This document shows positions 7,105 through 53,434 of a stretch of 64,000 bases of DNA, piece by piece (within the stretch, counting starts at the first letter, position 1; each line of letters opens with the position of its first letter). A program made the position numbers and the translations under genes. Below the pieces are notes generated by a model that saw only the letters and a list, made by a program, of their open reading frames with translations, was not told the origin of the DNA and did no database searches. This stretch comes from Oceaniglobus indicus (GTDB taxonomy: Bacteria; Pseudomonadota; Alphaproteobacteria; Rhodobacterales; Rhodobacteraceae): positions 186,001 through 250,000 of the forward strand of contig NZ_NMZM01000002.1 of NCBI RefSeq assembly GCF_002751875.1, given 5' to 3'.

Positions 7105-7108
7105 GAAA

Positions 7109-7132
7109 CGGCCCCGGCGAACGCCGGGGCCG
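7109..7132 (+). terminator. GC-rich stem-loop after aroC, probably bidirectional
   Basis: A perfect 10-bp stem (CGGCCCCGGC / GCCGGGGCCG) closes a GAAC loop four bases after the aroC stop and 16 bases before the stop of the convergent PRC-barrel gene. The following T-rich stretch is short (CATCGTTTCGG), so termination may be partial. Confidence 0.65.
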
Positions 7133-7148
7133 CATCGTTTCGGTCAGG

Positions 7149-7529
7149 TCAGATCCAGTAATACGGCATCCCGAAGTGGCTGTAATACCGCTCTTCCCAC
7201 GCCCGGTCACGGGTCCAGTCGTCGTTGCGGGGGGGCATCCCCTCGAGCTGTTCCTTGGTGATATCGGTGACGAAACCACCTTTTGACGGGTCGTAATCCA
7301 GCTTGCCCCACGGTACCGGCACCTCTTCCGCACCAATTCCGAAAAAACCGCCAAAGTTCATGACGGCATAGCCGATGTTGCCCGACTTCTTGTCGATCAT
7401 CAGGTGGGCGATGTCGCCGACGTGATCGCCGGTCGGGCTATAGACCGCCGTTCCGGTGACGTCGTCGGACGACACCAGATGGCCGCCGGTTTCGGTTTGC
7501 GAGTGGTCTGTCTTCAATGCGTCAGTCAT
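7149..7529 (-). CDS. PRC-barrel domain protein
   Basis: 126-residue soluble protein with a single PRC-barrel domain (residues ~24-95): the pattern GTAVYSPTGDHVGDIAHLMIDKKSGNIGYAVMNF is typical. The C-terminus is rich in Trp and Tyr and ends FGMPYYWI. PRC-barrel domains occur in photosynthetic reaction-centre H subunits and RNA-processing proteins, but stand-alone versions like this are usually of unknown role, often linked to stress or membrane association. The ATG at 7529 was chosen because GGAGG lies nine bases upstream. It is convergent with aroC, and no partner gene is apparent. Confidence 0.82.
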   Translation of the reverse strand: MTDALKTDHSQTETGGHLVSSDDVTGTAVYSPTGDHVGDIAHLMIDKKSGNIGYAVMNFGGFFGIGAEEVPVPWGKLDYDPSKGGFVTDITKEQLEGMPPRNDDWTRDRAWEERYYSHFGMPYYWI

Positions 7530-7647
7530 CGGAAAACCTCCTCTTCTCGATGTCACCGAGTCAACGGGGATGGCGGCCGAACGTTCCCATCAGGCAGGTG
7601 CCATCGGCCGAAAGCGGCCGATCCGAAACGGCGCCGCGCGCGGTGGA

Positions 7648-8550
7648 TCAGCTCGCGCGGGGTGGGTGCGGCGGAACGGCGTTGATACGCCGCGCCTTGG
7701 ACACCTGCACGGCAAAGATACCGGCCGTGATGATCGCCACGCCGACGATATCCAGCACACCCAGCGCCTCGCCCAGCAGCAGGGCGGCAATGGCCACGCC
7801 AAGGAACGGGTTCAGGAAATGGAACGTCGATGCGCGCACCATGCCGATCCGCCCGACCAGCACGAACCACACCAGCGTCGCCGCCAGCCCCGGCACAAGG
7901 GTGGTATAGGCAAACGCCAGCACCAGCCGCCAGGACCACGCCACATCGAAGGTTTCCGTCGGGATCGCCACCACCGCCAGACAGACCGACCCCACCAGCA
8001 TCTGAAGCCCGACCACCATCAACAGGTTGCCCCCCGAAGACGCACCGCGCATCGACAAGGTGGCCACGGTCAGCGCGATGGCCCCGAGGATGCACAGGAT
8101 CAGGCCCGTCACATCCACGCCGCCGGAAATGCGCGACCCCATGATCAGCACGACGCCGAACATGCCGGCGGCCAACCCGGCCAGCCCCAGTGGCCGCGTC
8201 CGTTCGCCCATGAACAGCCAGCCGGCCAGCGCCACCAGCAATGGCAGGGACGACGCGATGATCGCGGCCAGCCCCGCCTCGATCTTCTGCATCGCGACAA
8301 AGTTCAGCCCCAGGTACAGCGCGTTCTGGCAGATGCCGAACACCGCCGTCGCCTTCCATTGCGCCCGGCTCAGCCGCCATGTCTGGCCCAGCGCCAGCGC
8401 GATGCCGACCCCCAGAAGGCCCGAGATCAGGAACCGCAGGCTGAGCGCCGTCAGGGGCGGCGCGTCCAGCACGATCATCCGTGCGCTGGTAAAGGCCGAC
8501 GACCACATGACGGCGAACGCCACGCCCAGCGCGATTGCCTTGATGTCCAT
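7648..8550 (-). CDS. EamA/DMT-family transporter
   Basis: 300 residues with about ten hydrophobic segments arranged as two EamA repeats, the drug/metabolite transporter layout; these are inner-membrane exporters or importers of small metabolites. The ATG at 8550 (MDIKAIALG) has GGAG upstream and leads straight into the first membrane helix. It lies 72 bases downstream of the MarR gene and is the last member of the minus-strand catabolic arm, so it may export a pathway intermediate or analogue. That link is inferred from position only. Confidence 0.85.
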   Translation of the reverse strand: MDIKAIALGVAFAVMWSSAFTSARMIVLDAPPLTALSLRFLISGLLGVGIALALGQTWRLSRAQWKATAVFGICQNALYLGLNFVAMQKIEAGLAAIIASSLPLLVALAGWLFMGERTRPLGLAGLAAGMFGVVLIMGSRISGGVDVTGLILCILGAIALTVATLSMRGASSGGNLLMVVGLQMLVGSVCLAVVAIPTETFDVAWSWRLVLAFAYTTLVPGLAATLVWFVLVGRIGMVRASTFHFLNPFLGVAIAALLLGEALGVLDIVGVAIITAGIFAVQVSKARRINAVPPHPPRAS

Positions 8551-8622: not shown

Positions 8623-9057
8623 TCAGGTCAGCTTGCGCAACAGGGCCAAAAGCTGTGTCCGCTCGGCGGCGTCCAGAGGTGACAGCGTCTCGTCGGTGAT
8701 GACGTGGCCGGCCTCGTGCAGTTCGGCGATCATTGCGACACTTTCGTCGGTCAGCGATATCAGCGTGCGCCGCCGGTCGCCCGGATAGGGTTTGACGGCG
8801 ACCAGCCCCTTGGCCTTCAGCCGGTCGATCACCCCCTTGATCGTCGCCACATCCATCGCCACCGCGCGGCCCAGTTCGTTCTGCGACGCGGGGCCGGCCT
8901 CGTGCAGGCGGATCAGGGTGGAAAACTGTGTCGGCGTCAGACCGCCGGGCGCCAGCCGCTGAAAGATCGCGGCGTGCCGCTGGCTGACCTGGCGCAGCAG
9001 ATAGCCGGCCTGATCGTCCAGGACATACCCGTCGCGCGGGGCGCTTTCATCGTTCAC
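8623..9057 (-). CDS. MarR-family transcriptional regulator
   Basis: 144 residues, the normal MarR length. It contains the winged helix-turn-helix (residues ~45-110: SQNELGRAVAMDVATIKGVIDRLKAKGLV) and the wing motif DRRRTLISLT. MarR proteins are usually repressors released by small aromatic ligands. It begins only 16 bases after the preceding catabolic gene, so it is probably co-transcribed and autoregulatory. NicR, the nicotinate-pathway repressor of Pseudomonas putida, is also a MarR protein responding to 6-hydroxynicotinate, so a similar ligand is a reasonable guess here. The inverted repeat at the 16.1-kb promoter is a candidate operator. Confidence 0.9.
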   Translation of the reverse strand: MNDESAPRDGYVLDDQAGYLLRQVSQRHAAIFQRLAPGGLTPTQFSTLIRLHEAGPASQNELGRAVAMDVATIKGVIDRLKAKGLVAVKPYPGDRRRTLISLTDESVAMIAELHEAGHVITDETLSPLDAAERTQLLALLRKLT

Positions 9058-9073: not shown

Positions 9074-9661
9074 TCATCGCAATCCGTCCCGGCCTTCGGC
9101 GTCTTCGTGACTCAGCCCGCCGACACGCGGCAGGGGGCGCCCGCTGTCGGTGACGGCCACCGCGACCATGATTTCATTCGCGCGGGGCGAATCGTTCAGC
9201 CGCACCTCGATCCCGTCGAAGTGGCTGCGCACATAGGCCGCGTCCTTGTGGCCCAAAGGCACATCCAGCACCTGGCCCGGTCCGCCCATCTTCTTGGACG
9301 ACGGCACGAGGGCCGCGCCCTTTTCCACCGCCGCGCGCAGGGGTGCGCCCAGTTTCGGATGCAGGATCGCGGCGGCGTGTTCCAACTCGCCGTTCTCGCC
9401 GACCATGGCGGCCTTGCCATAGCTTTGCGCCTGCGCGGGAGCGATGCCCAGCGCGCTCACGCACCGTTCACCCAGCAGCCCGCCCAGTTCGGCCCCGATG
9501 TCGATCAGGTCCGACAGGTCGTCGGCATAGGTGCCGGCGAAGGGGTTGGCGATGACGGCGACGGCCACCGCCTTGCGGGTCGGCGGCGCGATCTCGCGCC
9601 CCATCTCGATGCGGGTCTCCTCGACCCAGACGGCGATCTTGCGGATATTCGCCTTTGCCAT
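9074..9661 (-). CDS. AA_synth (DUF1185) family protein, copy 1
   Basis: 195 residues of the DUF1185 family, recognised by the block VAVAVIANPFAGTYADDLSDLIDIGAELG, the segment GKAAMVGENGELEHAAAILHPKLGAPLRAAV, the motif VPSSKKMGGPG, and HKDAAYVRSHFDGIEVRLNDSPRANE. The family takes its name from genome-context guesses; no enzymatic activity is established that I know of. It lies 35 bases after copy 2 (9697-10281), and the two are clear paralogues, so they may form a heteromer. Context places it in the reductive N-heterocycle cluster, where it could act on a ring-opened amide or aldehyde product. That role is inference. Confidence 0.85.
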   Translation of the reverse strand: MAKANIRKIAVWVEETRIEMGREIAPPTRKAVAVAVIANPFAGTYADDLSDLIDIGAELGGLLGERCVSALGIAPAQAQSYGKAAMVGENGELEHAAAILHPKLGAPLRAAVEKGAALVPSSKKMGGPGQVLDVPLGHKDAAYVRSHFDGIEVRLNDSPRANEIMVAVAVTDSGRPLPRVGGLSHEDAEGRDGLR

Positions 9662-9696
9662 GCTTGCGGCTCCTTCAGTGTTCCTGGCCTGCAACG

Positions 9697-10281
9697 TCAG
9701 CGCTGGCCGTCCTCGCCCTTGATGTCGCGTGCCTCCAGCCCGCCCGACCGGCTGTGCACCCGCGGCCCGGTCGTCATGACCAGGATGAAGGCCAGTTCAT
9801 CGGCCCGCGGCGCGTCGTTCACCCCCACCTCGATACTGTCGAAATGGCTGCGCACGTAAGAGGCGTTGACATGGGTCACCGGCACGTCCAGGCGCGCCCC
9901 GACCCCGCCCACCTTCTTGGTCGACGGCACGATCGCCTTGGTCCCGTCCAGCACCGCGCGCATGGAATATCCACCGGGCGCATGCCACAGCGCGCCATGC
10001 TCCAGCTCGCCCGCCGCGCCGACGATGGACCCCTTGCCATAACCTTCGATGGCCTTCGGATCGCCGCCCAGCGCGTTCAGCAGACGGGTCGCCATGTCGA
10101 CGCCCATGGGCTTGAGATCTTCCATGAACGGCTGAATGTCCGCGACATAGCCGCCGGCGAACGGATTGCGGATCACCGCCATGATCGCCCCGCGCTTCAG
10201 CGGCTGGGCCGGGGCGGGGCCGAATTCGTGAAACACCTCTTCGACACTCAGAACGGTCTTGCGGATGACGACCTCAGGCAT
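9697..10281 (-). CDS. AA_synth (DUF1185) family protein, copy 2
   Basis: 194 residues, paralogous to the next gene downstream. Shared blocks are AVIRNPFAGGYVADIQPFME, GKGSIVGAAGELEHGALWH, VPSTKKVGGVG and YVRSHFDSIEVGVNDAPRADE. Copy-specific differences lie in the N-terminal 30 residues and in the GGYSMRAVLDGTKAI segment. It overlaps the upstream UPF0280 gene by eight bases (ATG at 10281, upstream stop at 10274), so it is translationally coupled. Such retained tandem pairs suggest subunit specialisation rather than recent duplication, since the two are well diverged. Function unknown. Confidence 0.85.
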   Translation of the reverse strand: MPEVVIRKTVLSVEEVFHEFGPAPAQPLKRGAIMAVIRNPFAGGYVADIQPFMEDLKPMGVDMATRLLNALGGDPKAIEGYGKGSIVGAAGELEHGALWHAPGGYSMRAVLDGTKAIVPSTKKVGGVGARLDVPVTHVNASYVRSHFDSIEVGVNDAPRADELAFILVMTTGPRVHSRSGGLEARDIKGEDGQR

Positions 10282-11095
10282 GGGCGGGCTCCTTTGCTTC
10301 GATGTAATGGCTGGCGCCGATCACGCGGCGTTCGCCCTGAAGGCACAGTGCGGCGGCATGGATCAGCCCGGAGCGGCACATGGCGTCACCACGCGCCACG
10401 CCCCGCGCCAAAGCTTGCGAGATGTCATCCGGTGTCAGGCCGTGGACCCCGACAACCACGGGACGCGCGCCAAGATCGCTGTCGTCCTTCACGCGGTCGG
10501 CCGGGGCGCGCGCGATGCCCGGATGACCGGGCACGTCCACCGCATTGGCAATCAGCGTCGCGGCCACGTCGGCCGCCGACGCCGTCCGGGCCAGAACGGT
10601 AACCGAATCGGCGATGCCCATGGACAGGGACCGCCCGCCGCGCCCGCTGGTGGCAATGCCGCGCACCGGATCGGCGTGGCGCACGACGATCCGCCCCGCC
10701 GCCATGGCGACGCGAAACACCTCGCCTTCGGTCAGGTACAGCGCAATGTCGCCGCCGTTGTTCACATAGGCCCGCCGCACCCCCGGCACGGCCCGGATCG
10801 CGCCCAGCACCGCATCGGCCACCGCGCCCGCAACCGCGGCCATCGGCGTCGCCTGCCCCGGATGGGCCTGCACGGCGGCCCACATGGCGCGCGCCACCGG
10901 GCCGCCGGGACAGGGGCCATCCCACTGGCGCAACAGGGCGTAGTCGTCCATCAGACGTTCAAGGATCCCGTCGAAGCGCGCCCGCGCCGCCGCGAATCCC
11001 GCCCGGCGCGCCCCGTCGCAGCCGATCACCAGATCGATGGGACCGTGGTGCAGGTGCAGCCGGTCACCGGGCAGAAGGGCGGCCTGAACGCTCAC
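10274..11095 (-). CDS. UPF0280 family, ApbE-like (possible flavin transferase)
   Basis: 273 residues. Family features include MDDYALLRQWDG, YVNNGGDIALYL (residues ~110-121), GIATSGRGGRSLSMG (~147-160), ADSVTVLART (~162-171) and SAADVAATLIANA (~173-185). These line up in order with ApbE flavin transferases: the GGD loop, an ATSG turn, and SVTV followed by AD..AT near the metal/FAD site. ApbE enzymes transfer FMN from FAD onto Ser/Thr of target flavoproteins. The start is GTG and overlaps the stop of the reductase gene as GTGA, giving tight coupling. I infer a flavinylation role for that reductase; the family itself is formally uncharacterised. The downstream AA_synth gene overlaps it by eight bases. 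Confidence 0.82.
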   Translation of the reverse strand: MSVQAALLPGDRLHLHHGPIDLVIGCDGARRAGFAAARARFDGILERLMDDYALLRQWDGPCPGGPVARAMWAAVQAHPGQATPMAAVAGAVADAVLGAIRAVPGVRRAYVNNGGDIALYLTEGEVFRVAMAAGRIVVRHADPVRGIATSGRGGRSLSMGIADSVTVLARTASAADVAATLIANAVDVPGHPGIARAPADRVKDDSDLGARPVVVGVHGLTPDDISQALARGVARGDAMCRSGLIHAAALCLQGERRVIGASHYIEAKEPAHA

Positions 11096-12510
11096 GCGGC
11101 GCCGTCCCGGGGCACCCGGCGGATCCCGTCCTTCAGCACGGAATCGACGGGTTGGATCCGCTCCACGTGGCCGCCCATGGCCTTGTAATCCTCGCGCCGC
11201 AGGGTGAACTCGATCGGCGCGACAAGGGCCGGTGTCGGCACATAGCCGAAGGCGTTCGTCGGCATGTCCATCACATCGGCCATCACCGTGATCCCGCCGC
11301 CGGGCCAGACGTATCCGGCCGCCCCGCCCACGGTCACCTTCGTCAACGTATCCTTGACCGAGCGGGTCAGGCCGACGGGGTTTTCCGTGACCCCGGCGCG
11401 CAGCGATCCGCCCGCCCCGCCCATGAACAGCACCGAACACAGCGAGGGCTCGCAGTTGTCGGCGATCCGTTCGGCAATCGCGCGCAGCGCATCGGGGATG
11501 TAGGCCACCTGCGGCGCCAGATCATCGTCCAGCGTGAAATAGGCCCATTGTTCGCCGGTGGTCGAAATCATCAGAAGGCGCAGACCCGACCACGCCACCT
11601 TGGGATCCACCGCCTTGATGATCGTCAGCGGGTCTTCCACATCGGTGCCGCCCCAGCCGGTGCCGGGACGCGCCACCTGGAAATACCGCCCCGGGGTCGA
11701 ACGGCGCCCGGTCACCCGGATCCCCGCCGGTTTCATGCCCAACTGCTTGCCCGCCTCGTGTTCGGTCAGCACGCCGGTGATGTGGTCGTCCACCACGATC
11801 ACCTCGTCGACATGGGGCGCCCATTGCTGTGCGAACATCCCGATGGTGGCCGAACCGCATCCCACGCGCATGAGCTTTTCCGTCTCGCCGTTGATGACCG
11901 GCGGCTTTCCGGCCTGCACCACGATCGATGCGCCATCGTCGATCTGCATCTCGACGGGTTCGCGGTTGCACAGCGCCATCAGCGCATCGCAGGTCACGCG
12001 ACCTTCCTTTTTCGAGCCGCCGGTCAGGTGGTCCACCCCCCCGAGGCTGAGCATCTTGGACCCGTATTCCCCGGTCGTCACATGGCCGATGGGTTCGCCA
12101 TCGACCCGCACGACCGCGCATTCCTCGCCGATATGACGGTCGGTGTCGATCTTCACCTTGACCCCGCAATACGAGAATATCCCCTCGGTCACGATGGTGA
12201 TCATGTCCACGTCGTCGATCATCTGCGACACGATGAACGGCGCGGGCTTGTAGTCGGGATATGTCGTGCCCGCCCCGATGGCGGTGACAAAGGGGCGGTC
12301 GGCCTTCAGGATGTCGCCGTCCCATTCCTCGGGGCGCTCGGCCCGGTCCAGAAACGGCACGGCGGGCGCGCCGTTCTCGATCACCGTCAGCGGGTCCAGG
12401 CGCACCAACTCGCCGCCGTGGTTGGCATAGCGGTCGCAGGCCCCGGATTTCCCGTCCGAGATATAGCACATCACGGGGCAGGCATCGCAGCGGATCTTCT
12501 CGTCACTCAT
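11092..12510 (-). CDS. 6-hydroxynicotinate reductase-like Fe-S protein
   Basis: 472 residues. An N-terminal cluster motif (Cys8-x2-Cys11-x3-Cys15-x9-Cys25, RCDACPVMC then GACDRYANH) suggests a 4Fe-4S site. Further conserved-looking cysteines lie in FSYCGVKV, VTCDALMALC, VGCGSATIG and DNCEPSLC. This start and general layout match proteins annotated as 6-hydroxynicotinate reductase. The characterised Eubacterium barkeri Hnr reduces 6-hydroxynicotinate to 1,4,5,6-tetrahydro-6-oxonicotinate and contains Fe-S clusters and a covalently bound flavin. Here the gene overlaps the hydroxylase upstream by eight bases and the UPF0280 gene downstream by four. Substrate in this organism is unproven; related oxo-heterocycles are possible. 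Confidence 0.78.
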   Translation of the reverse strand: MSDEKIRCDACPVMCYISDGKSGACDRYANHGGELVRLDPLTVIENGAPAVPFLDRAERPEEWDGDILKADRPFVTAIGAGTTYPDYKPAPFIVSQMIDDVDMITIVTEGIFSYCGVKVKIDTDRHIGEECAVVRVDGEPIGHVTTGEYGSKMLSLGGVDHLTGGSKKEGRVTCDALMALCNREPVEMQIDDGASIVVQAGKPPVINGETEKLMRVGCGSATIGMFAQQWAPHVDEVIVVDDHITGVLTEHEAGKQLGMKPAGIRVTGRRSTPGRYFQVARPGTGWGGTDVEDPLTIIKAVDPKVAWSGLRLLMISTTGEQWAYFTLDDDLAPQVAYIPDALRAIAERIADNCEPSLCSVLFMGGAGGSLRAGVTENPVGLTRSVKDTLTKVTVGGAAGYVWPGGGITVMADVMDMPTNAFGYVPTPALVAPIEFTLRREDYKAMGGHVERIQPVDSVLKDGIRRVPRDGAA

Positions 12511-15235
12511 GGGTTTTCTCCAGCGCCGCCTTCATGCGCGACGGGGTGACAGGCACCTGCCGGATCCGCACGCCGGTGGCATTGCGGATCGCGTTCAGCA
12601 GGGCGGGCGCGGTCGGAATCAGGACATGTTCGCCCAGCCCCTTGGCGCCATATGGGCCGTGCGCATCCGGGTCTTCGACGATCAGGGTTTCGATGGGGGG
12701 GATGTCACCGATGGTGGGAATCAGGTAATCGTGCAGGTTTTCTGTCCGGCCGGGCAGATATTCCTCCATCAACGCCATGCCCAGACCCTGGGCGATGCCG
12801 CCCTGAACCTGGCCTTCGACCAGCAGCGGGTTGATCGCCTGACCCACGTCATGGGCGGCGGTAAAATGCAGCGGTTTCACGGTGCCAAGCCGCAAATCGA
12901 CCTCGACCACCGCCAGATGCGCGGCATAGCCGAACTGTGCGTAAGGCACACCCTGTCCGTTTTCATCCAGCGGTTTCGTCGGCGGATCATAGGTTTCGCA
13001 CGACCTGATGACGTAACCCTCGGCATCGGCCTCGATCCGGTCCAGCGCGATGTCGTGGGTCACGTCGCCCGACGTGACGTGCAGCCCGTCGCGATCCAGC
13101 GCGATCTGCGCCGTTTCGGGTGCATTGCACAGCTTCAGGATCGCGGCCCGCATCGCTTCGCCCGACAGTTTCGCGGCGGCCCCGGTGACGAAGGTCTGGC
13201 GGCTGGCGCTGGTCTTGCCCGCGTCGGGGGTGACGTCGGTATCGGCGCCGACCAGGTGCAGTTGCGTCACCGGCAACCCCACCGCCTGGGCGAAGATCTG
13301 GGCGATCACGGTGTTCGCGCCCTGCCCGATATCCATCGCCCCCTGGTGCAGGGTGATCGTGCCATCCGCTTTGATCCCTGCCTTGATGGTCGACGGGTTC
13401 GGCAGGGACGTGTTGCCGCAGCCATACCATCCCCCGGCCAATCCGACCCCGCGCCTGACGGTTTCAGACGCGGCATTGAACGCCGCGCATTCCGCCTTGG
13501 CCCTGTCCCACGCCGGACGCAGCGCGTCGAAGCAGGCACCAATACCGACGCCCTGATCGAACACCTGACCACAGACGGTGGGCTGCCCGTTCTGCAAGGC
13601 GTTCAGCGCGCGGAACTCCAGCGCATCCATGCCCAGCGCCTCGGCCAGATCGTCGAACAGGCATTCCTGCGCGATGGCCGATTGCGGCACGCCAAAGCCG
13701 CGAAACGCGCCCGAGGGCGGGTTGTGGGTGTGAATGCCGCGCGCCTCGGCCCGGTAATCCGCGATGCGGTAGGGACCGGATGCATGGACCGGCACGCGGT
13801 TGGCCACCGTCGGCCCCCAGGACGCATAGGCGCCGGTGTTGAAATCGCCATCGAACGCCATGCCGCACAGCGTGCCGTCGCTGGTCGCACCGATCCGCAC
13901 CCGCAGGTCGGACGGATGGCGCTTGGTCGTGGATTGCATCGATTCGGTGCGCGAATAGGTGATGCGCACGGCTTTGCCGGTCTTCAGCGCACCCAGTGCC
14001 AGAAAGGGCTGCACCGACAGATCCAGTTTCGATCCGAAACCGCCGCCCACCGCCGTCGGCACGATCCGCACCCGCGACTTGGGCCAGCCAAGGATGCCGG
14101 CAACCCCTTCCTGATCCATTACCGGGGCCTGGGTGCAGGCGTGGATCTCCACACGCTCGCCCACCATCCGCGCGAAGCCCGCTTCGGGCTCGATATAGGC
14201 GTGTTCGACGAAACCGCTCCGGAAATGCCCATCAACCACGATGTCGGCGCGCGCCAGCGCCGCTTCGGCGTCGCCGCAGGCCACGAAACCGCCGGTCATC
14301 AGGTTCCCATCGCGCCCGACGTGCAGAAGCGGCGCGCCATCGGCCTTGGCGTCGGTCACGTCCAGGACATGATCCAGCGGCGTCCAGGTCACCGGAAAAT
14401 CCGCCATGTCGAATGCGGCCATGGCGGCGGGCGATCCGATCACCGCCGCCACCGCCTCGCCGCGATAGCGCGTCTCGCGCTCGGCAAAGACGGGTTGATC
14501 GACAAAGGCGGGAATCACGCCGAACGCATTGCGCCCCGGCACATCAGCCGCCGTCAGCACGGCCTCGAGCCCCGGCGTATCGGCCACCAGCGCATCCAGA
14601 TCGCCAAAGGCGAAGGCCGCGCGGGGGTGCGGCGAGCGGACAATGCGCATCACCAGCGCATCCAACGGGGCCACATCGTCGCCGAAGGCCTCGCGCCCTT
14701 CGACCTTGGCGGCACCGTCCAGACGGCGGATCGTCTGGCCGACCTGTCCGGCACCCATGGGCCCGGCAGGCAACCCGCGCACCGCGTCGATGATCTTGCG
14801 ATAGCCGGTGCAGCGGCACAGCACACCGGCCAGCGCATCCGTCACCTGATCCTCGGACGGGCGCGGCACCTCGCGCAGCAGGGCGACGGCCGACACCATC
14901 ATGCCCGGCGTGCAGATCCCGCATTGCGCCGCCTGATGGTCCTGAAACGATTGGACCAGGGCACGGCCTTCGTCGGTGTCCAGCACCCCGGTCAGCGTAT
15001 CGACGGCACGCCCCGCCGCCTGTTGCGTCGGCATCAGGCAGGCGCAGACCGGCGCGCCGTCCACCAAAACGGTGCAGGCGCCGCAATCGCCGGCGTTGCA
15101 GCCGACCTTGACATCCCGGGCACCCAGCCGTTCGCGCAACGAATAGGACAGGCGTTCGCCCGGTGCCGCATCAACCTCGGCAATGCGCCCGTTCAGGCGC
15201 AGGGCGGTCATGGCGGTGTGGGCGGGCTTATCCAT
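12503..15235 (-). CDS. Xanthine dehydrogenase-family hydroxylase, fused 2Fe-2S and molybdopterin subunits
   Basis: 910-residue fusion. Residues ~10-155 are the two-cluster 2Fe-2S subunit (Cys46, Cys51, Cys54, Cys66 for the plant-type cluster, then QCGICTPGMM and LCRCTGYRKI for the second). Residues ~165-905 are the molybdopterin subunit, with VGGGFGSKLDLSV, SGAFRGFGVPQ, GAMDIGQGANTV and the C-terminal GAKGLGE carrying the presumed catalytic Glu. Such enzymes hydroxylate N-heterocycles with water-derived oxygen. The FAD subunit is separate and encoded just upstream (8-nt overlap). In E. barkeri nicotinate dehydrogenase the molybdenum chain is split; here the opposite, a fusion, is seen. The start is taken at MDKPAHTAM; the in-frame ATG at 15211 (MTALRL) is an alternative. 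Confidence 0.9.
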   Translation of the reverse strand: MDKPAHTAMTALRLNGRIAEVDAAPGERLSYSLRERLGARDVKVGCNAGDCGACTVLVDGAPVCACLMPTQQAAGRAVDTLTGVLDTDEGRALVQSFQDHQAAQCGICTPGMMVSAVALLREVPRPSEDQVTDALAGVLCRCTGYRKIIDAVRGLPAGPMGAGQVGQTIRRLDGAAKVEGREAFGDDVAPLDALVMRIVRSPHPRAAFAFGDLDALVADTPGLEAVLTAADVPGRNAFGVIPAFVDQPVFAERETRYRGEAVAAVIGSPAAMAAFDMADFPVTWTPLDHVLDVTDAKADGAPLLHVGRDGNLMTGGFVACGDAEAALARADIVVDGHFRSGFVEHAYIEPEAGFARMVGERVEIHACTQAPVMDQEGVAGILGWPKSRVRIVPTAVGGGFGSKLDLSVQPFLALGALKTGKAVRITYSRTESMQSTTKRHPSDLRVRIGATSDGTLCGMAFDGDFNTGAYASWGPTVANRVPVHASGPYRIADYRAEARGIHTHNPPSGAFRGFGVPQSAIAQECLFDDLAEALGMDALEFRALNALQNGQPTVCGQVFDQGVGIGACFDALRPAWDRAKAECAAFNAASETVRRGVGLAGGWYGCGNTSLPNPSTIKAGIKADGTITLHQGAMDIGQGANTVIAQIFAQAVGLPVTQLHLVGADTDVTPDAGKTSASRQTFVTGAAAKLSGEAMRAAILKLCNAPETAQIALDRDGLHVTSGDVTHDIALDRIEADAEGYVIRSCETYDPPTKPLDENGQGVPYAQFGYAAHLAVVEVDLRLGTVKPLHFTAAHDVGQAINPLLVEGQVQGGIAQGLGMALMEEYLPGRTENLHDYLIPTIGDIPPIETLIVEDPDAHGPYGAKGLGEHVLIPTAPALLNAIRNATGVRIRQVPVTPSRMKAALEKTHE

Positions 15236-16067
15236 GGGCGGCCTTCCGGATCGCGCGGTCGCACAGTTCGGCGACGGCCAGACGGCGGTAATCGGCGCTG
15301 CCCCGCACATCGGCGATGGGCGACAGGCCAGACAGGTGTTCGGGCCGGGTCAATGCGCCGTCCAACCCGCCGAGATCCAGACCGACCAACACCGCCTCAA
15401 GCTCCGGCAGGCGCTGTGCCACGGGCGAGGCGGCGCCGACGGCGATCCGCGCGCCCGCGATGCGCCCACCGTCGCGCCAGATCACCGTCGACACCATGAC
15501 GATCGAGATCACAAGGTATTTCCGGCTGCCCAGCTTCAGGAACGCCGATTGCGCGCTTTCGGGCTGCGGCGGAACATGGATCGCCGCGACGATTTCACCG
15601 GGACGCAGGGCGGTTCGCCGCACGCCGGTCAGGAATTCGCCCAGCGGCAAATGGCGCGTGCCCTCGCGCGCGGCCAGTTCAACGGTCGCATCCAGCGCCA
15701 TCAGCGCCGGCACGCCGTCGGCGGCGGGCGATGCGTTGCACAGATTGCCCGCCAGCGTGCCGGTGGTCTGGATCTGCACCGATCCGACCTCGCGCGCCGC
15801 CGCCTTCAACCCGTCGAAACAGGGCGGCAGGTCGGCGCGGATCGCCTCGCGCCATGTCACCGCCGCGCCGATCCGCCAGCCGCCATCGTCACGCCGCGTG
15901 ATGCCGCGCAACTCGGCCACGCGGGTCAGGTCGATGAAATCGGCCGGAGGCGGAGAATCGCCCAGCGCGGGAAACACATCGGTGCCACCGGCGACGATCC
16001 GCGCGCCGCCATGGGCCGCGATCGCGCCCAGCGCATCGTGCAAGGTTTGCGGCGCGTGATAGCTCAA
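15228..16067 (-). CDS. FAD-binding subunit of molybdenum hydroxylase
   Basis: 279 residues of the CoxM/NdhF-type FAD subunit, which passes electrons from the 2Fe-2S clusters to an acceptor. Visible motifs are ARIVAGGTDVFPALGD for the FAD pyrophosphate and QTTGTLAGNLCNASPAADG, both standard for the family. The start is a TTG at 16067, preceded by GGGAGG seven bases upstream; no ATG gives a full-length domain. This is the first gene of the minus-strand catabolic operon, with a good sigma-70-like promoter about 35-65 bases upstream. It overlaps the hydroxylase gene by eight bases. Confidence 0.9.
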   Translation of the reverse strand: MSYHAPQTLHDALGAIAAHGGARIVAGGTDVFPALGDSPPPADFIDLTRVAELRGITRRDDGGWRIGAAVTWREAIRADLPPCFDGLKAAAREVGSVQIQTTGTLAGNLCNASPAADGVPALMALDATVELAAREGTRHLPLGEFLTGVRRTALRPGEIVAAIHVPPQPESAQSAFLKLGSRKYLVISIVMVSTVIWRDGGRIAGARIAVGAASPVAQRLPELEAVLVGLDLGGLDGALTRPEHLSGLSPIADVRGSADYRRLAVAELCDRAIRKAAHG

Positions 16068-18384: not shown

Positions 18385-18485
18385 TCCGCCGGTCGCTGCA
18401 ACAAAATGCTGGACAGGTCGTTCGTGTGCATACAACCTTGATCCAGTGACAAACGGCCGCAGCGCCGCCACAGGGAGGTTCCACC

Positions 18486-19781
18486 ATGACCCGCAAGACG
18501 CTTCTGAAACCCGACTATTCCCGCCGCAAGGCAATCCGCACCATGGGCCTCGGGGCCGGGGCGCTGGCCGCGTCCACCGCGTTGCCGCGATTCGTGCAGG
18601 CCCAGAGCGCCGCGCCGATCAAGATCGGGTTCCAGGTGCACCGCACCGGCATTGGCGCCTCCTATGGCCGCTGGTATGACCGCACGACCACCGCCGTGGT
18701 CAAGCGGATCAACGACGCCGGCGGGATCAACGGCCGCCCGATCGAGATCATCGCCGAGGATGACGGCACCGACGCCAAGCGCGGCGCCGAGGTGATCGAG
18801 AAGTTCGCGACCCAGTCAAAATGCGACATCGCCTTCGGCACGCTGTTTTCCCATGTCGTGATCGGATCGGCCCCCCGCGCGGGCGAGCTGAAGCTGCCGT
18901 ATTTCGTGGTTTCCGAAGGGCACCACGTCGCGTCGGGCATGCTGAACCGATACACCCTGCAACCCGGCATCACCGACGTGAAAAGCCAGGTGCAGGCGAT
19001 GGCGCCCTATGTCGCCAACAACCTGGGCAAGAAGGTCACGATGATCTATGCGGACTTCGCGTTCGGCCATGATCACCGCGACTATTTCTCGGCCGCGGTC
19101 GAGGCGCAGGGCGGCGAAGTCGTGGCAAAGATCGCCATTCCGCCCACCGAGACGAGTTTCACCAAGTATTTCCCCCAGATCCCCCGCGAAACCGAGGTGG
19201 TGTATCACGTCATGGTCGGCCCCGCCGTTCTGACGTTCGTCAAGGAAATGGGTGAATTCTTCGGCCCCTCCAGCCCGGAAATCTTCGGCTTCATCGATTC
19301 GCTGGAAGCGGTGGACATCGCGTCGCCGGGGCTGGAATTTCTCGAAGGCAGCTATTTCTGGGAAGGCATGCCGCGCTATGCGCAGGCCGATCAGACGGAT
19401 TACGAAAAGGAATACCGTGACGCGGTCGGCGTCGATGCCAACGGGGCATCGGTCACCGATTCCAAGGACGTGTCGACCTATGCCCATATGTTCGGCTGCT
19501 GGGAGACGATGAACATCATCAAGGCGGGCATGGAAGCCTGCGATTACCAGGGGCCCGAGCAGCGGCAGGCGCTGATCGAGGCGGTCGAGGCGATGTCAGA
19601 CATGCCCGCGGGCATCGACCATCCCCAGGGACCGAAACGGTTCAACGGCAAGACACACCAGACATTCGGCGTGCAGTATATTTCCAAGGTCGAGGGCGGA
19701 AAGATGAACGTGGTCCACACCACGTCGATCGAAGACACCCTGTATCCCGACGAAGTCGACTATACGACGCAATCGTTCTGA
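18486..19781 (+). CDS. ABC transporter substrate-binding protein (urea/amide-branched-chain type)
   Basis: 431 residues with an N-terminal Tat signal (SRRKAIRTMG followed by a hydrophobic stretch ending FVQAQ). The mature protein is a type I periplasmic binding protein of the Peripla_BP_6 family: PIKIGFQVHRTGIGASYG, INDAGGINGRPIEIIAEDDGTD and ITDVKSQVQAM lie in the expected order, and the C-terminal region resembles amide/urea-type receptors. It captures the substrate for the four membrane and ATPase components that follow. GGGAGG precedes the ATG. Ligand is unknown; the genomic setting suggests a carboxylated N-heterocycle or amide. Confidence 0.92.
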   Translation: MTRKTLLKPDYSRRKAIRTMGLGAGALAASTALPRFVQAQSAAPIKIGFQVHRTGIGASYGRWYDRTTTAVVKRINDAGGINGRPIEIIAEDDGTDAKRGAEVIEKFATQSKCDIAFGTLFSHVVIGSAPRAGELKLPYFVVSEGHHVASGMLNRYTLQPGITDVKSQVQAMAPYVANNLGKKVTMIYADFAFGHDHRDYFSAAVEAQGGEVVAKIAIPPTETSFTKYFPQIPRETEVVYHVMVGPAVLTFVKEMGEFFGPSSPEIFGFIDSLEAVDIASPGLEFLEGSYFWEGMPRYAQADQTDYEKEYRDAVGVDANGASVTDSKDVSTYAHMFGCWETMNIIKAGMEACDYQGPEQRQALIEAVEAMSDMPAGIDHPQGPKRFNGKTHQTFGVQYISKVEGGKMNVVHTTSIEDTLYPDEVDYTTQSF

Positions 19782-19788
19782 CCCCCCT

Positions 19789-19815
19789 GCACCGCCGGGC
19801 CGGTTCCGGCGGTGC
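19789..19815 (+). other. Intercistronic stem-loop between binding protein and permease genes
   Basis: A perfect 10-bp stem (GCACCGCCGG / CCGGCGGTGC) with a 7-nt loop lies eight bases after the binding-protein stop. There is no T-run. Such hairpins often stabilise the upstream mRNA or partly attenuate read-through so that the binding protein is made in excess. Confidence 0.6.
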
Positions 19816-19842
19816 CTGTCCCATGACCTGAACGGATCCTTT

Positions 19843-20769
19843 ATGGAATTCGGCCCCCACCTGATGCTCGCCATGCTGGAAGGCGCGGTGACCGCCGCGA
19901 TCCTTGCGCTGACCGCCATGGGGCTGTCGGTCGTGTTCGGCGTGATGCGCGTGGTCAACGTCGCGCACGGCGAATTCTACATGCTGGGCGCGGTGATCGC
20001 GTGGTTCGTCGCCGCAACGCTGGGCACACACCCGGCGGTCGGTTTCGTCGCCGCGCTGGTGATCGCGCCGCTGCTGGTGGGCGCGCTGGCGTCGCTGGCC
20101 GACGTTCTGATCCTGCAACGCATAAACTATGACCCCGAACGCACGATCGTCGCCACCATCGGCCTGCTGTATATCCTGCAACAGGGCACGCTGATGACCT
20201 TCGGCCCCGATGCGCGCCCGGTCGAACCGCCGTTCAACCATCGTCTGGCCCTGCCCTGGGTGGAATGGGGCGAACAGGGGCTGGCGCTCTATTGGCCCTG
20301 GGGGCTGTCGATCACGTCCTACAAGCTGTTCGTGATCGTTGCCGCCGCCGCGATCCTGGGCGCGCTGTGGCTGTTCATGACCCGCACCAGGGCGGGGCTG
20401 GTGATGCGGGCCACGCAACAGGACAGCAATATGGCCCGGGCGTTCGGCATACCGGTCGCGCGGGTCTATGCCCTGGTCTTCGGGCTGGGGGCCGCGCTGG
20501 CGGCCATGGGGGCGGTCCTGATCGTGCCGATCCAGCAGGCGCATTACCTGATGGGGCACGATCCCTTGTTGCTGTCGTTCATCGTCGTCATCATCGGCGG
20601 CCTCGGGTCATTGCCGGGCACGATCATCGCCGCGATCCTGATCGGCATGTCCGACGGCATCATCTCGGTCTTCTTTTCACCGACGCTGGCCAAGATCCTG
20701 GCGACGCTGGCCGTTGCCATGGTCCTGGTGTTCCGCCCGCAGGGCTTGCTGGGAAAGAAAGCCGCATGA
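19843..20769 (+). CDS. Branched-chain-type ABC transporter permease (LivH-like)
   Basis: 308 residues, about eight membrane helices. LivH family features are ALTAMGLSVVFGVMRVVNVAHGEFYMLGA near the N-terminus, the EAA-like coupling helix MRATQQDSNMARAFGIPVARVYALVFG, and FIVVIIGGLGSLPGTIIAA in the C-terminal half. It forms the membrane channel with the next gene product. It ends in ATGA shared with the next start. It is the first permease after the intercistronic hairpin. Confidence 0.93.
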   Translation: MEFGPHLMLAMLEGAVTAAILALTAMGLSVVFGVMRVVNVAHGEFYMLGAVIAWFVAATLGTHPAVGFVAALVIAPLLVGALASLADVLILQRINYDPERTIVATIGLLYILQQGTLMTFGPDARPVEPPFNHRLALPWVEWGEQGLALYWPWGLSITSYKLFVIVAAAAILGALWLFMTRTRAGLVMRATQQDSNMARAFGIPVARVYALVFGLGAALAAMGAVLIVPIQQAHYLMGHDPLLLSFIVVIIGGLGSLPGTIIAAILIGMSDGIISVFFSPTLAKILATLAVAMVLVFRPQGLLGKKAA

Positions 20770-21704
20770 GCCACCGCGACACGTTCCTGCACCTGTCGGT
20801 GATTGCCGTGCTGTTCGCCGCGTTCTTCGTGCTGCCCGCCTATCATTCCGGCAGCCTTGCGCGGATCATGGTGCTGGCGATCTATGCCATGGGATACAAT
20901 CTGGCGTTCGGATACACCGGTCTGCTCAGCCTCGGGCATGCGTTGTTCTTCGCCGCCGGGATGTACGGGCTGGGGCTGACCATGCAACTGGGCGGCTGGG
21001 CGGCGATCCCGGCGTTCGCCCTCGCGCTGGTGGCGTCACTGGTGGTGGCGGGGGTGGTCGGGGTGCTGGCCCTGCGCACCAGGGGCGTCGGCTTCATGAT
21101 CGTGACACTGATGTTCGCGCAGGCCGGATACCTGACCGCGCTCTATTTCGTGCAATACACCCGGGGCGACGAAGGCTTCGTGATCGACCAGGCGGCGCGC
21201 GCCATCGGCCCGGCCGACCTGTCGTCCGAGGCCGGGCGGTATTTCGCGGCACTGTTCCTGTTCGCCGTCACCCTGCTGGTCATCGGTGCGCTGGTCCGCG
21301 CCCCGTTCGGACGCACCCTGATCGCGATCCGCGAAAACGAGGCCCGTGCGACCATGCTGGGATACGACGTGCAGCGCCTGAAATGGATCGCGCTGGTGGT
21401 GTCGGGCACCATTTCCGGCGCTGCGGGGGCCGCCTATGCCCTGTTGTTCGGCTATGCCGGGGCCAGCTTTGCGGGCGTGCAATACAGCATCTTCCCGCTG
21501 CTCTATGTCCTGTTGGGGGGCGCTGGCACCACCCTTGGGCCGCTGATCGGTGCCATCTTCATGTTCTACCTGATCGACCTGTCCAGCGGGATCACCAACG
21601 CCTACATGCTGATCGCGGGTGTCGTTCTGGTATTGCTGACGATGTTCCTGCCCCACGGCATCCTCGGAACCCTTCGCAAGAGGGCGCTGCCGTGGCTTCC
21701 ATGA
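20766..21704 (+). CDS. Branched-chain-type ABC transporter permease (LivM-like)
   Basis: 312 residues with about nine membrane helices. LivM features are YAMGYNLAFGYTGLLSLGHALFFAAGMYG, LRTRGVGFMIVTLMFAQ, the coupling segment IRENEARATMLGYDVQRLK, and LLGGAGTTLGPLIGA. It starts within the LivH-like stop (ATGA overlap), and the ATPase gene starts inside its 3' end, so expression of the subunits is strictly coupled. Confidence 0.93.
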   Translation: MSHRDTFLHLSVIAVLFAAFFVLPAYHSGSLARIMVLAIYAMGYNLAFGYTGLLSLGHALFFAAGMYGLGLTMQLGGWAAIPAFALALVASLVVAGVVGVLALRTRGVGFMIVTLMFAQAGYLTALYFVQYTRGDEGFVIDQAARAIGPADLSSEAGRYFAALFLFAVTLLVIGALVRAPFGRTLIAIRENEARATMLGYDVQRLKWIALVVSGTISGAAGAAYALLFGYAGASFAGVQYSIFPLLYVLLGGAGTTLGPLIGAIFMFYLIDLSSGITNAYMLIAGVVLVLLTMFLPHGILGTLRKRALPWLP

Positions 21705-22411
21705 TGCTGAGCACGCGTGGCCTGACCAAGACCTATGCCGGGGTGAAGGCGAACACCGATGTGGATTTCGATCTGCCCAAGGGCCAGATCCGCGCATTGA
21801 TCGGCCCGAACGGCGCGGGTAAATCCACCTTTGTGGGCATGCTGTGCGGCCGTATCCCCGCCACGCGCGGCACCGTCACCCTTGACGGGCAGGACATCAG
21901 CCGCCTGCCCGCCCACAAGCGGATCGCCATGGGCATCGCCTATACCTTCCAGATCACATCGGTCTTTGCGGGGCTGAGCGTGCGCGAGAACCTGGCCCTG
22001 GCGGCCCGCCGCCACCTGCATTCGGCGGCCGTGGTCACCGCCAAGGTCGATGATGTTCTCGACCGGGTGGACCTGGCCGGGCGCGCCGACCAGATCGCCG
22101 GCGATCTGAGCTACGGGCACCAGCGGATCCTGGAAATCGGCATGGGTCTGGCGCAGGATCCGCGCCTGTTCATCCTCGACGAACCGACGCAGGGTCTGGC
22201 CGAAACCGAAATCGCCGCGTTCAAGACGCTGATCCTGTCGCTGACCGACACCACGATCCTGCTGATCGAACACAACATGGGCGTCGTCATGGAAACCGCC
22301 GAATACATCACCGTCCTGAATTTCGGCCAGATCCTGGCCGAGGGCACGCCCGATCAGATCCGTGGCAACGCGGATGTGCAGGCCGCCTATCTGGGAACCG
22401 GCAATGCTTGA
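21692..22411 (+). CDS. ABC transporter ATP-binding protein (LivG-like)
   Basis: 239 residues. Walker A GPNGAGKST, the Q-loop in YTFQIT, a signature LSYGHQRILEIGMGLA in place of the usual LSGGQ (the YG variant is common in LivG/UrtD proteins), Walker B RLFILDEPTQGL and the H-loop LIEHNM are all present. I take GTG at 21692, which has AGAGGG seven bases upstream; the ATG at 21701 shares an ATGA with the LivM stop and is equally possible. It powers transport together with the next gene. Confidence 0.93.
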   Translation: MASMMLSTRGLTKTYAGVKANTDVDFDLPKGQIRALIGPNGAGKSTFVGMLCGRIPATRGTVTLDGQDISRLPAHKRIAMGIAYTFQITSVFAGLSVRENLALAARRHLHSAAVVTAKVDDVLDRVDLAGRADQIAGDLSYGHQRILEIGMGLAQDPRLFILDEPTQGLAETEIAAFKTLILSLTDTTILLIEHNMGVVMETAEYITVLNFGQILAEGTPDQIRGNADVQAAYLGTGNA

Positions 22412-23099
22412 GGTGGCGGACATCCACGCCGCCTATGGCCGGGTCAAGACGCTGTTTGGCGTGTCGCTGAGCGCGAAACCCGGCGAAATCACCTGTCTGC
22501 TGGGGCGCAACGGCGCGGGCAAGACCACCACCATGCGCGCGATCATGGGACTGTTGCCTGTGTCGCAGGGGTCGGTATCGCTGGACGGCACGCCCCTGCA
22601 CACCCTGCCGGCGCACATGATTCCACGCCAGCGGATCGGCTATATCCCGCAGGGGCGGCAGTTGTTCGCGGAACTGACCGTGGCCGAGAATATCGAGATC
22701 GGGTTGATGACCTGCGGCGAGGGGCCCGACACCCGCGACTGGGTGCTCGACATCTTTCCGCGCCTGCGCGAACGCCTGCGCCAGAGGGCCGAAACCCTGT
22801 CGGGGGGCGAACAGCAGATGCTGGCAACGGCCCGCGCGCTGTGCCTGCGGCCCCGCGTCCTGTTGCTGGACGAGCCGACCGAAGGATTGCAGCCTTCGAT
22901 GATCGAAGAAATCCGCCAGGTCGTTCTGCGGATGAAGGCCGAGGGGCTGATCGTGCTGCTGGTCGAACAGCGGATGGATGCGATCCTGTCCATGGCCGAC
23001 CAGGTGGTGTTCCTGGAGAACGGCCAGTCGCGCGAAAACATGTTCGGCGCCGCCCTGCGCGCCGACCCCGAAATCCTGACCCGCCGGTTGGGTGTCTGA
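22404..23099 (+). CDS. ABC transporter ATP-binding protein (LivF-like)
   Basis: 231 residues. Walker A GRNGAGKTT, the Q-loop YIPQGRQLF typical of LivF, signature LSGGEQQMLATARAL, Walker B VLLLDEPTEGL and the H-loop LLVEQRM. It overlaps the LivG-like gene by eight bases and completes a five-component importer. The next gene, the amidohydrolase, follows after 15 bases with its own GGAG and is almost certainly in the same transcript. Confidence 0.94.
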   Translation: MLEVADIHAAYGRVKTLFGVSLSAKPGEITCLLGRNGAGKTTTMRAIMGLLPVSQGSVSLDGTPLHTLPAHMIPRQRIGYIPQGRQLFAELTVAENIEIGLMTCGEGPDTRDWVLDIFPRLRERLRQRAETLSGGEQQMLATARALCLRPRVLLLDEPTEGLQPSMIEEIRQVVLRMKAEGLIVLLVEQRMDAILSMADQVVFLENGQSRENMFGAALRADPEILTRRLGV

Positions 23100-23114: not shown

Positions 23115-24311
23115 ATGGCCGATCCTGCCCCTGCCGCAAAGTCCGAAACCCCCGAAAAGCTGGTGATCCACAACATCGGGCTGATGTTGTCGGGCCGGAT
23201 CGAGGAGCCGATCCTGGACGCCGATTGCGTGATCTGCGTCGACGGCAAGATCGCCGAGATCGGCCGCGCCAAGGACATGGATCAGGAAGGGGCGACGACG
23301 GTGGTGGACGCCAACGGCATCACCCTGTGCCCCGGCCTGATCGACAGCCACGTGCACCCGGTGATCGGCGATTACACCTCGCGCCAGCAACAGTTGGGTT
23401 GGATCGATTCGACCCTGCACGGCGGCGTTACCACGATGATTTCCGCTGGCGAGGTGCATGTGCCGGGACGGCCCAAGGATGTCGTCGGGCTGAAGGCGAT
23501 GGCGATCGCCTATCAGCGGTTCTACAGCAATTTCCGCCCCTCGGGGGTCAAGCTGCACGCCGGGGCGCCGGTGATCGAACACGGCATGGAAGAACACGAT
23601 TTCAAGGAGTTGGCCGAGGCGGGCGTGACCCTGTTGGGCGAAATCGGGCTGGGATCGGTAAAGGACGGCAAGACCGCCGCCCAGATGGTCGGATGGGCGC
23701 GGAAATACGGCATCCAGAGCACGATCCACACCGGCGGCCCGTCGATTCCGGGGTCCGGCCTGATCGACGCCGACATGGTGCTGGAAACCGGAACCGACGT
23801 GGTGGGGCACATCAACGGCGGCCATTCCGCCCTGCCCGACGACCAGATCGTGTGCCTGTGCGAGAACTGCAAGCAAGCCCTTGAAATCGTGCACAACGGC
23901 AACGAACGCGCGGCGATCCTGACGCTGAACACCGCGCGCGAGCTGGGCAAGCTGGACCAGCTGATCCTGGGCACCGACGGACCTGCCGGATCGGGGGTGC
24001 AACCCCTTGGCATCCTGCGGATGATCGCCATGCTGTCGTCGCTGGGGAACGTCCCGGCCGAAGTCGCCTTCTGCTTCGGCACCGGCAACACCTCGCGCCG
24101 CCGCAAGCTGGACACCGGCACGATCGAGATCGGCCAATGCGCCGACTTCGTGCTGTTGGACCAGGCGCAGCACGCGCCGGGCAAGACGATCCTCGACTCG
24201 GTGCAACTGGGCAATCTGCCGGGGGTCGCCATGACGGTGATCGACGGCAGGATCACGTCCCAGCGGTCACGCAACACGCCCCCGGCGTGGCGCGTCCCCG
24301 AGATGCGCTGA
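23115..24311 (+). CDS. Enamidase-like amidohydrolase
   Basis: 398-residue amidohydrolase-superfamily enzyme. Metal-ligand candidates are His79 and His81 (LIDSHVHP), Glu176 (LLGEIGLG) where many relatives have a bridging lysine, His205 (TIHTGGPS), His232 (VGHINGGHS) and Asp288 (LGTDGPAG). The layout and the HINGG motif match E. barkeri enamidase, a binuclear metal enzyme that hydrolyses 1,4,5,6-tetrahydro-6-oxonicotinate to ammonia and 2-formylglutarate. Presence with an Hnr-like reductase and a molybdenum hydroxylase in the same island makes the assignment stronger than sequence alone. Exact substrate is unproven; other cyclic enamides or lactams are possible. It is the last gene of the importer operon. 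Confidence 0.82.
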   Translation: MADPAPAAKSETPEKLVIHNIGLMLSGRIEEPILDADCVICVDGKIAEIGRAKDMDQEGATTVVDANGITLCPGLIDSHVHPVIGDYTSRQQQLGWIDSTLHGGVTTMISAGEVHVPGRPKDVVGLKAMAIAYQRFYSNFRPSGVKLHAGAPVIEHGMEEHDFKELAEAGVTLLGEIGLGSVKDGKTAAQMVGWARKYGIQSTIHTGGPSIPGSGLIDADMVLETGTDVVGHINGGHSALPDDQIVCLCENCKQALEIVHNGNERAAILTLNTARELGKLDQLILGTDGPAGSGVQPLGILRMIAMLSSLGNVPAEVAFCFGTGNTSRRRKLDTGTIEIGQCADFVLLDQAQHAPGKTILDSVQLGNLPGVAMTVIDGRITSQRSRNTPPAWRVPEMR

Positions 24312-53348: not shown

Positions 53349-53434
53349 GCCCAGGTGGCGGAATGGTAGACGCGCTAGCTTCAGGTGCTAGTACTGGCAA
53401 CGGTGTGGAGGTTCGAGTCCTCTCCTGGGCACCA
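53349..53434 (+). tRNA. tRNA-Leu (anticodon CAG)
   Basis: 86 nt including an encoded CCA. The acceptor stem GCCCAGG/CCTGGGC, a T arm with the TTCGAGT loop, and the anticodon stem CTAGC/GCTAG with loop TTCAGGT (CAG at 53382-53384) all pair. The long variable arm is expected of a class II leucine tRNA. Confidence 0.96.

Follow-up and report, generated by a model that had tools for sequence, protein, structure and literature searches.

A UPF0280 protein with a predicted ApbE fold as a candidate maturation partner of the 6-hydroxynicotinate reductase-like protein Hnr

The Hnr-UPF0280 gene pair

In a 64,000-nucleotide stretch of the Oceaniglobus indicus genome (contig NZ_NMZM01000002.1, positions 186,001 to 250,000; referred to here as the window), a gene encoding a 6-hydroxynicotinate reductase-like protein (Hnr) is followed by a gene encoding a protein of the UPF0280 (COG2122) family. 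The two lie within a minus-strand cluster that runs in the order flavin adenine dinucleotide (FAD) subunit, molybdenum hydroxylase, Hnr, UPF0280, two AA_synth genes, and MarR regulator (Table 1). A sequence-only reading of this DNA had placed the pair at 10274-12510, had noted that the UPF0280 start codon GTG overlaps the reductase stop as GTGA, and had recognized the motifs GGD, ATSG, SVTV, and AD..AT in that order in the UPF0280 protein; each of these observations is borne out here, with the motifs located at residues 112-116 (NNGGD), 148-151, 164-167, and 175-180, respectively. Because the protein scores 324.8 bits against NCBIfam NF003322 (cut-off, 290), which makes it a family member, and because six residues within the motifs are invariant or nearly so across 86 UPF0280 proteins, they are not chance occurrences. 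No signal peptide was apparent by eye. Three annotated plasmid clusters were read: those of Sulfitobacter pontiacus and Fuscovulum ytuae show the same 4-base overlap, and a Comamonadaceae plasmid has a 3-base gap between the two genes.

Table 1. Features of the Hnr-UPF0280 cluster and of the divergent genes beside it (coordinates are those of the window)
Feature	Position	Strand	Remarks
UPF0280 (COG2122, NF003322) protein, 273 residues	10274..11095	-	GTG start 11095-11093; predicted ApbE fold
GTGA shared by Hnr stop and UPF0280 start	11092..11095	-	Hnr TGA = 11094-11092
6-Hydroxynicotinate reductase-like protein (Hnr), 472 residues	11092..12510	-	N-terminal CxxCxxxC...C
Molybdenum hydroxylase fused to a [2Fe-2S] domain; likely a nicotinate dehydrogenase	12503..15310	-	3hrd chains matched
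FAD subunit of molybdenum hydroxylase	15228..16067	-	PF00941 and PF03450
AA_synth (PF06684, DUF1185), first copy	9697..10281	-	8-base overlap with UPF0280 end
AA_synth (PF06684), second copy	9074..9694	-	Near solved structure 2qtp, E 1.1e-106
MarR-family regulator	8623..9057	-	
ATP-binding cassette (ABC) transporter substrate-binding protein (Peripla_BP_6)	18486..19781	+	Probably imports nicotinate
Two BPD_transp_2 permeases and two ABC ATPases, same transporter	19843..23099	+	
Enamidase-like amidohydrolase	23115..24311	+	Best PDB match 2vun (enamidase)

Co-occurrence of UPF0280 and Hnr

The sequence-only reading had proposed presence/absence profiling of UPF0280 with Hnr-like genes, and such profiling revealed strict co-occurrence. 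Among 398 Pseudomonadota genomes, with matches counted at an E value of <= 0.001, Hnr was found in 33, or in 32 after one genome (G270) with a 35-residue match (E 9.4e-4) was dropped; UPF0280 was found in 34, in 32 of them above the family cut-off, the two that were dropped (G293 and G373) having short matches (E 8.2e-5 and 3.7e-4). The two sets consist of the identical 32 genomes, and none of the 366 others carries UPF0280 above the cut-off. By coordinates, the two genes are neighbors on one strand and <0.6 kb apart in all 32 genomes, and adjacency was seen in 30/30 loci that were fetched. In one of the 32 genomes (G016:C1:2969823-2971198), the Hnr match comes in two overlapping pieces, as a frameshift would give, and the UPF0280 match contains no stop.

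The same pattern was found at the level of the host family, sampled as one genome per genus (179 genomes, E <= 0.001), where Hnr and UPF0280 occur in 76 genomes each, both in 75, and neither in 102. In the single Hnr-only genome (G412), Hnr is cut by the end of its 13081-base contig, and in the single UPF0280-only genome (G553), the UPF0280 match begins at contig base 1. UPF0280 scored above the cut-off in 70 of the 76 genomes with a match; of the remaining six, contig ends truncate four (G501, G530, G553, and G560), one (G433) is split over two contigs, and one (G418) is interrupted by stops. In the last of these (G418:C28:4394-6521), an adjacent Hnr with 51% identity contains five stops and UPF0280 contains three, one of which may be the natural end, as proved for the stop in G386; the sequences suggest that the two genes have probably decayed together.

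We also examined loci from named genomes, taking the best 80 of 590 confirmed, which are thus near relatives. UPF0280 lies inside the locus in 76 of these, downstream of Hnr in 73 (with 12 to 832 bases between the matches) and about 6.4 to 6.8 kb upstream in 3, and it is absent from the locus in 4, one of which has just 432 bases of room. Whole-genome searches for these 4 and for the 3 with changed order recovered exactly one UPF0280 gene per genome. Six loci (L155, L156, L157, L072, L085, and L099), from Granulosicoccus-like genomes and some others, have the UPF0280 and AA_synth genes upstream, not downstream, of those for Hnr, the molybdenum protein, and the FAD subunit. UPF0280 is likewise present in 26/26 plasmids that carry Hnr; among viral contigs, tblastn found no relatives among the pattern matches.

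AA_synth, the operon's other small family, served as a control. It occurs in 59/398 of the Pseudomonadota genomes, namely, in 31/32 with Hnr and in 28/366 without, so that UPF0280, with 0/366, tracks Hnr more strictly. These counts also bear on the proposal that UPF0280 is a pathway enzyme acting on a small molecule such as a nicotinate intermediate, perhaps together with AA_synth, and merely travels with Hnr. The near-constant presence of AA_synth in Hnr genomes would suit such a role, as would the position of UPF0280 between two AA_synth genes in five loci (L116, L117, L118, L121, and L122), but one genome (G139) has Hnr and UPF0280 without AA_synth, the 28 Hnr-less genomes have AA_synth without UPF0280 above the cut-off, and the Eubacterium barkeri route is not known to need an extra step between Hnr and enamidase, and we therefore consider this proposal very unlikely. 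Because UPF0280 in proteobacteria is found almost only beside Hnr, it probably helps Hnr to work; that it is required for Hnr in some capacity, whether as maturase, as subunit, or as activator, we regard as very probable.

Predicted ApbE fold and conserved metal/diphosphate site

The AlphaFold model of UPF0280, built with 48 sequences, has a predicted local distance difference test score (pLDDT) of 95.4. Its first Foldseek match is 2o34, the UPF0280 protein of Desulfovibrio vulgaris (E 2.5e-9; template modeling [TM] score of 0.57 by query), followed by ApbE, FmnB, and Ftp chains (E 5.9e-5 to 2.5e-2), and every one of the 26 PDB chains at E <= 0.001 is UPF0280 or ApbE-like. Profile searches point the same way: 2o34 also ranks first among PDB entries in a sequence-profile search (E 1.8e-11), and hhalign aligned the 48 UPF0280 sequences with 8 true ApbE proteins over 104 columns (E 3.3e-5, probability 72). 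The ApbE family model PF02424 gave 13.7 bits for the window's UPF0280 protein, below the Pfam cut-off of 25.6, and at E <= 10 it matched 28/48 UPF0280 members, with a best value of 2.2e-5. By the model and its structural matches, UPF0280 is predicted to have the ApbE (T-fold) structure.

The available text on FmnB (PMC8906456) assigns N216, T256, S257, D301, and T305 to Mg/diphosphate binding. When matched through the alignment and the motifs rather than by superposition, these residues correspond to N112, T149, S150, D176, and T180 of UPF0280. In the 86 UPF0280 proteins, N112, D116, S150, and D176 are conserved in 86/86 and T149 and T180 in 84/86, so by this mapping UPF0280 keeps the ApbE Mg/diphosphate residues.

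Hnr of E. barkeri reportedly carries a covalent flavin. Together with the ApbE fold and the retained diphosphate chemistry, this leads us to favor flavin attachment, and we tentatively propose, at somewhat less than even confidence, that UPF0280 is a dedicated maturation partner of Hnr, most likely one that uses a modified form of the ApbE mechanism to install a covalent flavin. Under this proposal, UPF0280 would act in the cytosol on the Hnr of an E. barkeri-type nicotinate cluster. It would bind a flavin dinucleotide through its ApbE-type Mg/diphosphate site (N112, T149-S150, D176, and T180) and would pass flavin mononucleotide on to Hnr, with a Ser or Thr as the acceptor. A rebuilt pocket (G154-R155-S156-x-S158-x-G160-I161-A162) would replace the HxxDPxxG loop of ApbE, and the Hnr site that it recognizes would differ from the classical DxxSGAT motif. 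Classical ApbE (PF02424) is above the cut-off in 20/32 Hnr genomes and not in the other 12; in one genome (G159), a sub-cut-off PF02424 match falls inside the UPF0280 gene itself, and O. indicus itself has a single ApbE, encoded about 44 kb outside the window.

Evidence bearing against flavin transfer

A series of observations counts against this proposal, beginning with the fold itself, as the TM scores of the UPF0280 model to ApbE structures are just 0.30 to 0.51 by query length. The loop HxxDPxxG, with the general-base His (Vc His257 and FmnB His273; PMC8906456 for the role in FmnB), is absent from the UPF0280 profile alignment. Its His and Asp are invariant in the 8 true ApbE proteins, and UPF0280 has the G154-A162 loop in its place, with R155 and S156 in 86/86. 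FmnB Lys190 and Asp184, which contact the flavin ring (isoalloxazine) and the adenosine, respectively (PMC8906456), correspond to A89 and T83, each in 86/86, when counted from the shared GAVAD/GYAVD. By this mapping, UPF0280 has lost the half of the ApbE site that is specific for FAD. On the side of the putative client, the flavinylation motif D-x-x-[S/T]-G-A-[S/T] occurs in 0/102 Hnr proteins.

Two substitute attachment sites in Hnr were weighed and not retained. T222, the Thr of GCGSAT, was rejected because it is Ala in 28/102 sequences. The near-invariant block D242-H-I-T-G-V was not accepted as a degenerate flavinylation site, as the pattern D..[ST]G[AV] arose in 397/5000 protein shuffles; the block is preceded by a helix rich in glycine (GCGSATIG) and then a strand, and we read it as resembling the end of a Rossmann strand.

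The absence of both the ApbE-type general base and the target motif suits a second alternative, in which UPF0280 associates tightly with Hnr as a subunit or activator, binding a nucleotide but transferring nothing, the flavin of Hnr being self-attached (e.g., as 8-alpha-His or -Cys). As stated in the accessible text of PMC12052999, FAD linked through His, Cys, or Tyr can be attached by self-catalysis, and translational overlap of the two genes suits a complex. Yet the transferase-type Ser and Asp of UPF0280 are invariant and would not obviously be needed for plain binding, and we judge this alternative distinctly unlikely.

Genomic context and rates of evolution supply further points against the flavin transferase proposal. 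In Granulosicoccus-like genomes, UPF0280 is flanked by two AA_synth genes and is about 9 to 10 kb from Hnr where one contig holds both. Of the 4 genomes whose Hnr loci lack UPF0280, 2 have it about 9 to 10 kb upstream of Hnr on the same contig and strand, and in all 4 it is flanked by two AA_synth genes. That UPF0280 might be unlinked from Hnr in Granulosicoccus was rejected on the basis of the two genomes with both genes on one contig; in the third, the UPF0280 contig stops within the FAD-subunit gene, the same gene in which the Hnr contig starts, and in the fourth, an Hnr contig of 3055 bases says nothing on linkage. One plasmid, that of Hydrogenophaga sp. BPS33 (NZ_CP044550.1, the plasmid record alone), has UPF0280 without Hnr. 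In this record (L111), UPF0280 lies in repeated IS1071-bounded cassettes that hold Rieske and PDR/VanB oxidoreductase genes; it occurs at 4 places, two of them (7096-8028 and 17905-18837) in the stretch that was read.

In a mirror-tree comparison of 53 of the 80 loci (27 without all five near-full-length genes were dropped), tree distances of UPF0280 and Hnr showed no excess covariation (partial r = 0.095), whereas those of UPF0280 covaried with the FAD subunit (partial r = 0.41) and those of Hnr with the molybdenum subunit (0.61). The value of 0.41 leaves open the FAD subunit of the molybdenum enzyme as a candidate UPF0280 client, but we give rate covariation little weight because these genes are inherited together.

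The last point concerns what the family does elsewhere. According to the accessible text of PMC5764234, homocysteine synthesis in D. vulgaris requires COG2122 together with DUF39 and a NIL/ferredoxin protein, the fitness profiles of COG2122 and DUF39 correlate at 0.98, and a Methanosarcina acetivorans COG2122 mutant recovers when given more sulfide, cysteine, or homocysteine, which gives the family a genetic role in sulfide use in Methanosarcina. In the same text, Rauch and colleagues suggested a role for COG2122 in persulfide formation, and PMC12068725, where accessible, terms MA1715 a sulfur trafficking protein for L-ASST. Thus, UPF0280 has a homocysteine role in other phyla, and the accessible text of these two papers does not report a flavin on its partner. 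The suggestion in the sequence-only reading that Hnr would give UPF0280 its first role was therefore wrong, the genetic role of COG2122 in homocysteine synthesis having been published (PMC5764234). A link between UPF0280 and Hnr was not found in the literature searched, where most subscription journals were missing.

Some of these findings fit a third alternative, in which UPF0280 matures Hnr with a group other than flavin, either another nucleotide-borne group or sulfur or Fe-S, delivered as has been proposed for COG2122 with DUF39. The fitness correlation, the persulfide proposal, the sulfur trafficking assignment, and the loss of the FAD-specific half of the site all suit this alternative, as do the cysteines of Hnr, seven of which (8, 11, 15, 25, 115, 218, and 353) are invariant in 102 sequences, with an eighth (C174) in 99/102. 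Set against it, what UPF0280 keeps is a Mg/diphosphate site, and UPF0280 has no conserved Cys in the 86 proteins (best column, 27/86), which makes persulfide carriage through a cysteine of its own unlikely for the Hnr class. We regard non-flavin maturation as unlikely overall, although it is the likeliest of the three alternatives.

The sequence-only reading had inferred that UPF0280 is the flavin transferase of Hnr. That claim gains from the ApbE fold, the strict co-occurrence, the 12 genomes without ApbE above the cut-off, and the absence of DUF39, which (as HcyBio, PF01837) was found in 0/398 Pseudomonadota genomes, that of O. indicus included, with positive controls in Methanocaldococcus jannaschii, M. 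acetivorans, and Synechococcus elongatus. The claim is only partly supported, however: UPF0280 lacks the FAD-specific half of the site, Hnr lacks the DxxSGAT motif, and covariation does not single out Hnr. Flavin attachment by UPF0280 is weakened by the lost flavin and adenosine contacts, His, and motif and by the sulfur-metabolism role of the family.

Hnr and the nicotinate pathway cluster

In the libraries searched (Pfam and PDB), the reductase family to which Hnr belongs has no known structure. Its model (pLDDT 76) had no PDB match at E <= 0.001, and no Pfam family matched above the cut-off; the weak match was to GCV_T_C, which also appeared at E <= 10 in 35/46 relatives. Homology between Hnr and DUF39 was considered but found no support, as none of 46 Hnr proteins had an HcyBio match at E <= 10. 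"6-Hydroxynicotinate reductase" is the annotation of 17/26 plasmid homologs of the window's Hnr, and a proteobacterial Hnr, that of strain SG-6C, has 42% identity to E. barkeri Hnr (accessible text of PMC3511419).

The neighboring genes fit this name. A probable nicotinate hydroxylase and an enamidase-like amidohydrolase are both encoded in the neighborhood of the Hnr-like gene. The molybdenum protein matched chains A, B, and D of nicotinate dehydrogenase 3hrd among 56 PDB matches, which suggests that its substrate is likely nicotinate; because its first ATG overlaps the FAD-subunit gene, the true start is probably a later ATG. The amidohydrolase, which together with the ABC transporter (18486-23099) runs divergently from the minus-strand cluster, has the enamidase 2vun as its top PDB match (E 1.1e-105, query residues 15-395). 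On the basis of these matches, we take the cluster to encode a nicotinate pathway of the E. barkeri type, in agreement with the tetrahydro-oxonicotinate route of E. barkeri and Azorhizobium. The sole Rfam match in the window at the gathering threshold is a tRNA gene (RF00005) at 53349-53431 on the plus strand.

Implications

The molecular function of UPF0280/COG2122 has stayed unsettled despite the 2o34 structure, released in 2006, and a link, from genetics in anaerobes, with methionine synthesis. A strict second partner, found in aerobic, cultivable bacteria and in a pathway that is probably dispensable, makes the chemistry of the family directly testable. Should UPF0280 prove to attach flavin, the enzyme behind the covalent flavin of Hnr would be identified, and the homocysteine enzyme would merit a check for the same modification. 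A broader and rather doubtful extension is that UPF0280 represents a second class of transferases that modify proteins with flavin (or a nucleotide cofactor), one chemistry activating both Hnr and DUF39. Such a class would keep the metal/diphosphate half of ApbE, use a new donor pocket and general base, and modify a site other than DxxSGAT; its two clients would be redox enzymes with no detected relation that serve nicotinate breakdown (Hnr) and homocysteine synthesis (DUF39).

Comparison with known systems

Three known systems resemble parts of this locus. The E. barkeri nicotinate fermentation cluster (Hnr, enamidase, and nicotinate dehydrogenase) resembles the window in its enamidase, the best PDB match of the window's amidohydrolase. 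The ApbE/Ftp/FmnB proteins (PF02424) share with UPF0280 the predicted fold and the Asn, Thr-Ser, Asp, and Thr of the Mg/diphosphate site, whereas UPF0280 scores below their Pfam cut-off and has neither the HxxDPxxG loop with its general-base His nor the Lys at the flavin position, and its partner Hnr lacks DxxS/TGAS/T. The COG2122 proteins of homocysteine synthesis (DVU1097, which is 2o34; DvMF_0044; and MA1715) are of the same family and fold, and GGD, the S-x-S-x-G loop, and AD..AT are common to 2o34 and the Hnr-linked UPF0280 proteins. They differ in that 2o34 has His where the Hnr-linked proteins have R155 (86/86) and in that the partner there is DUF39/COG1900 with NIL-ferredoxin, whereas here it is Hnr.

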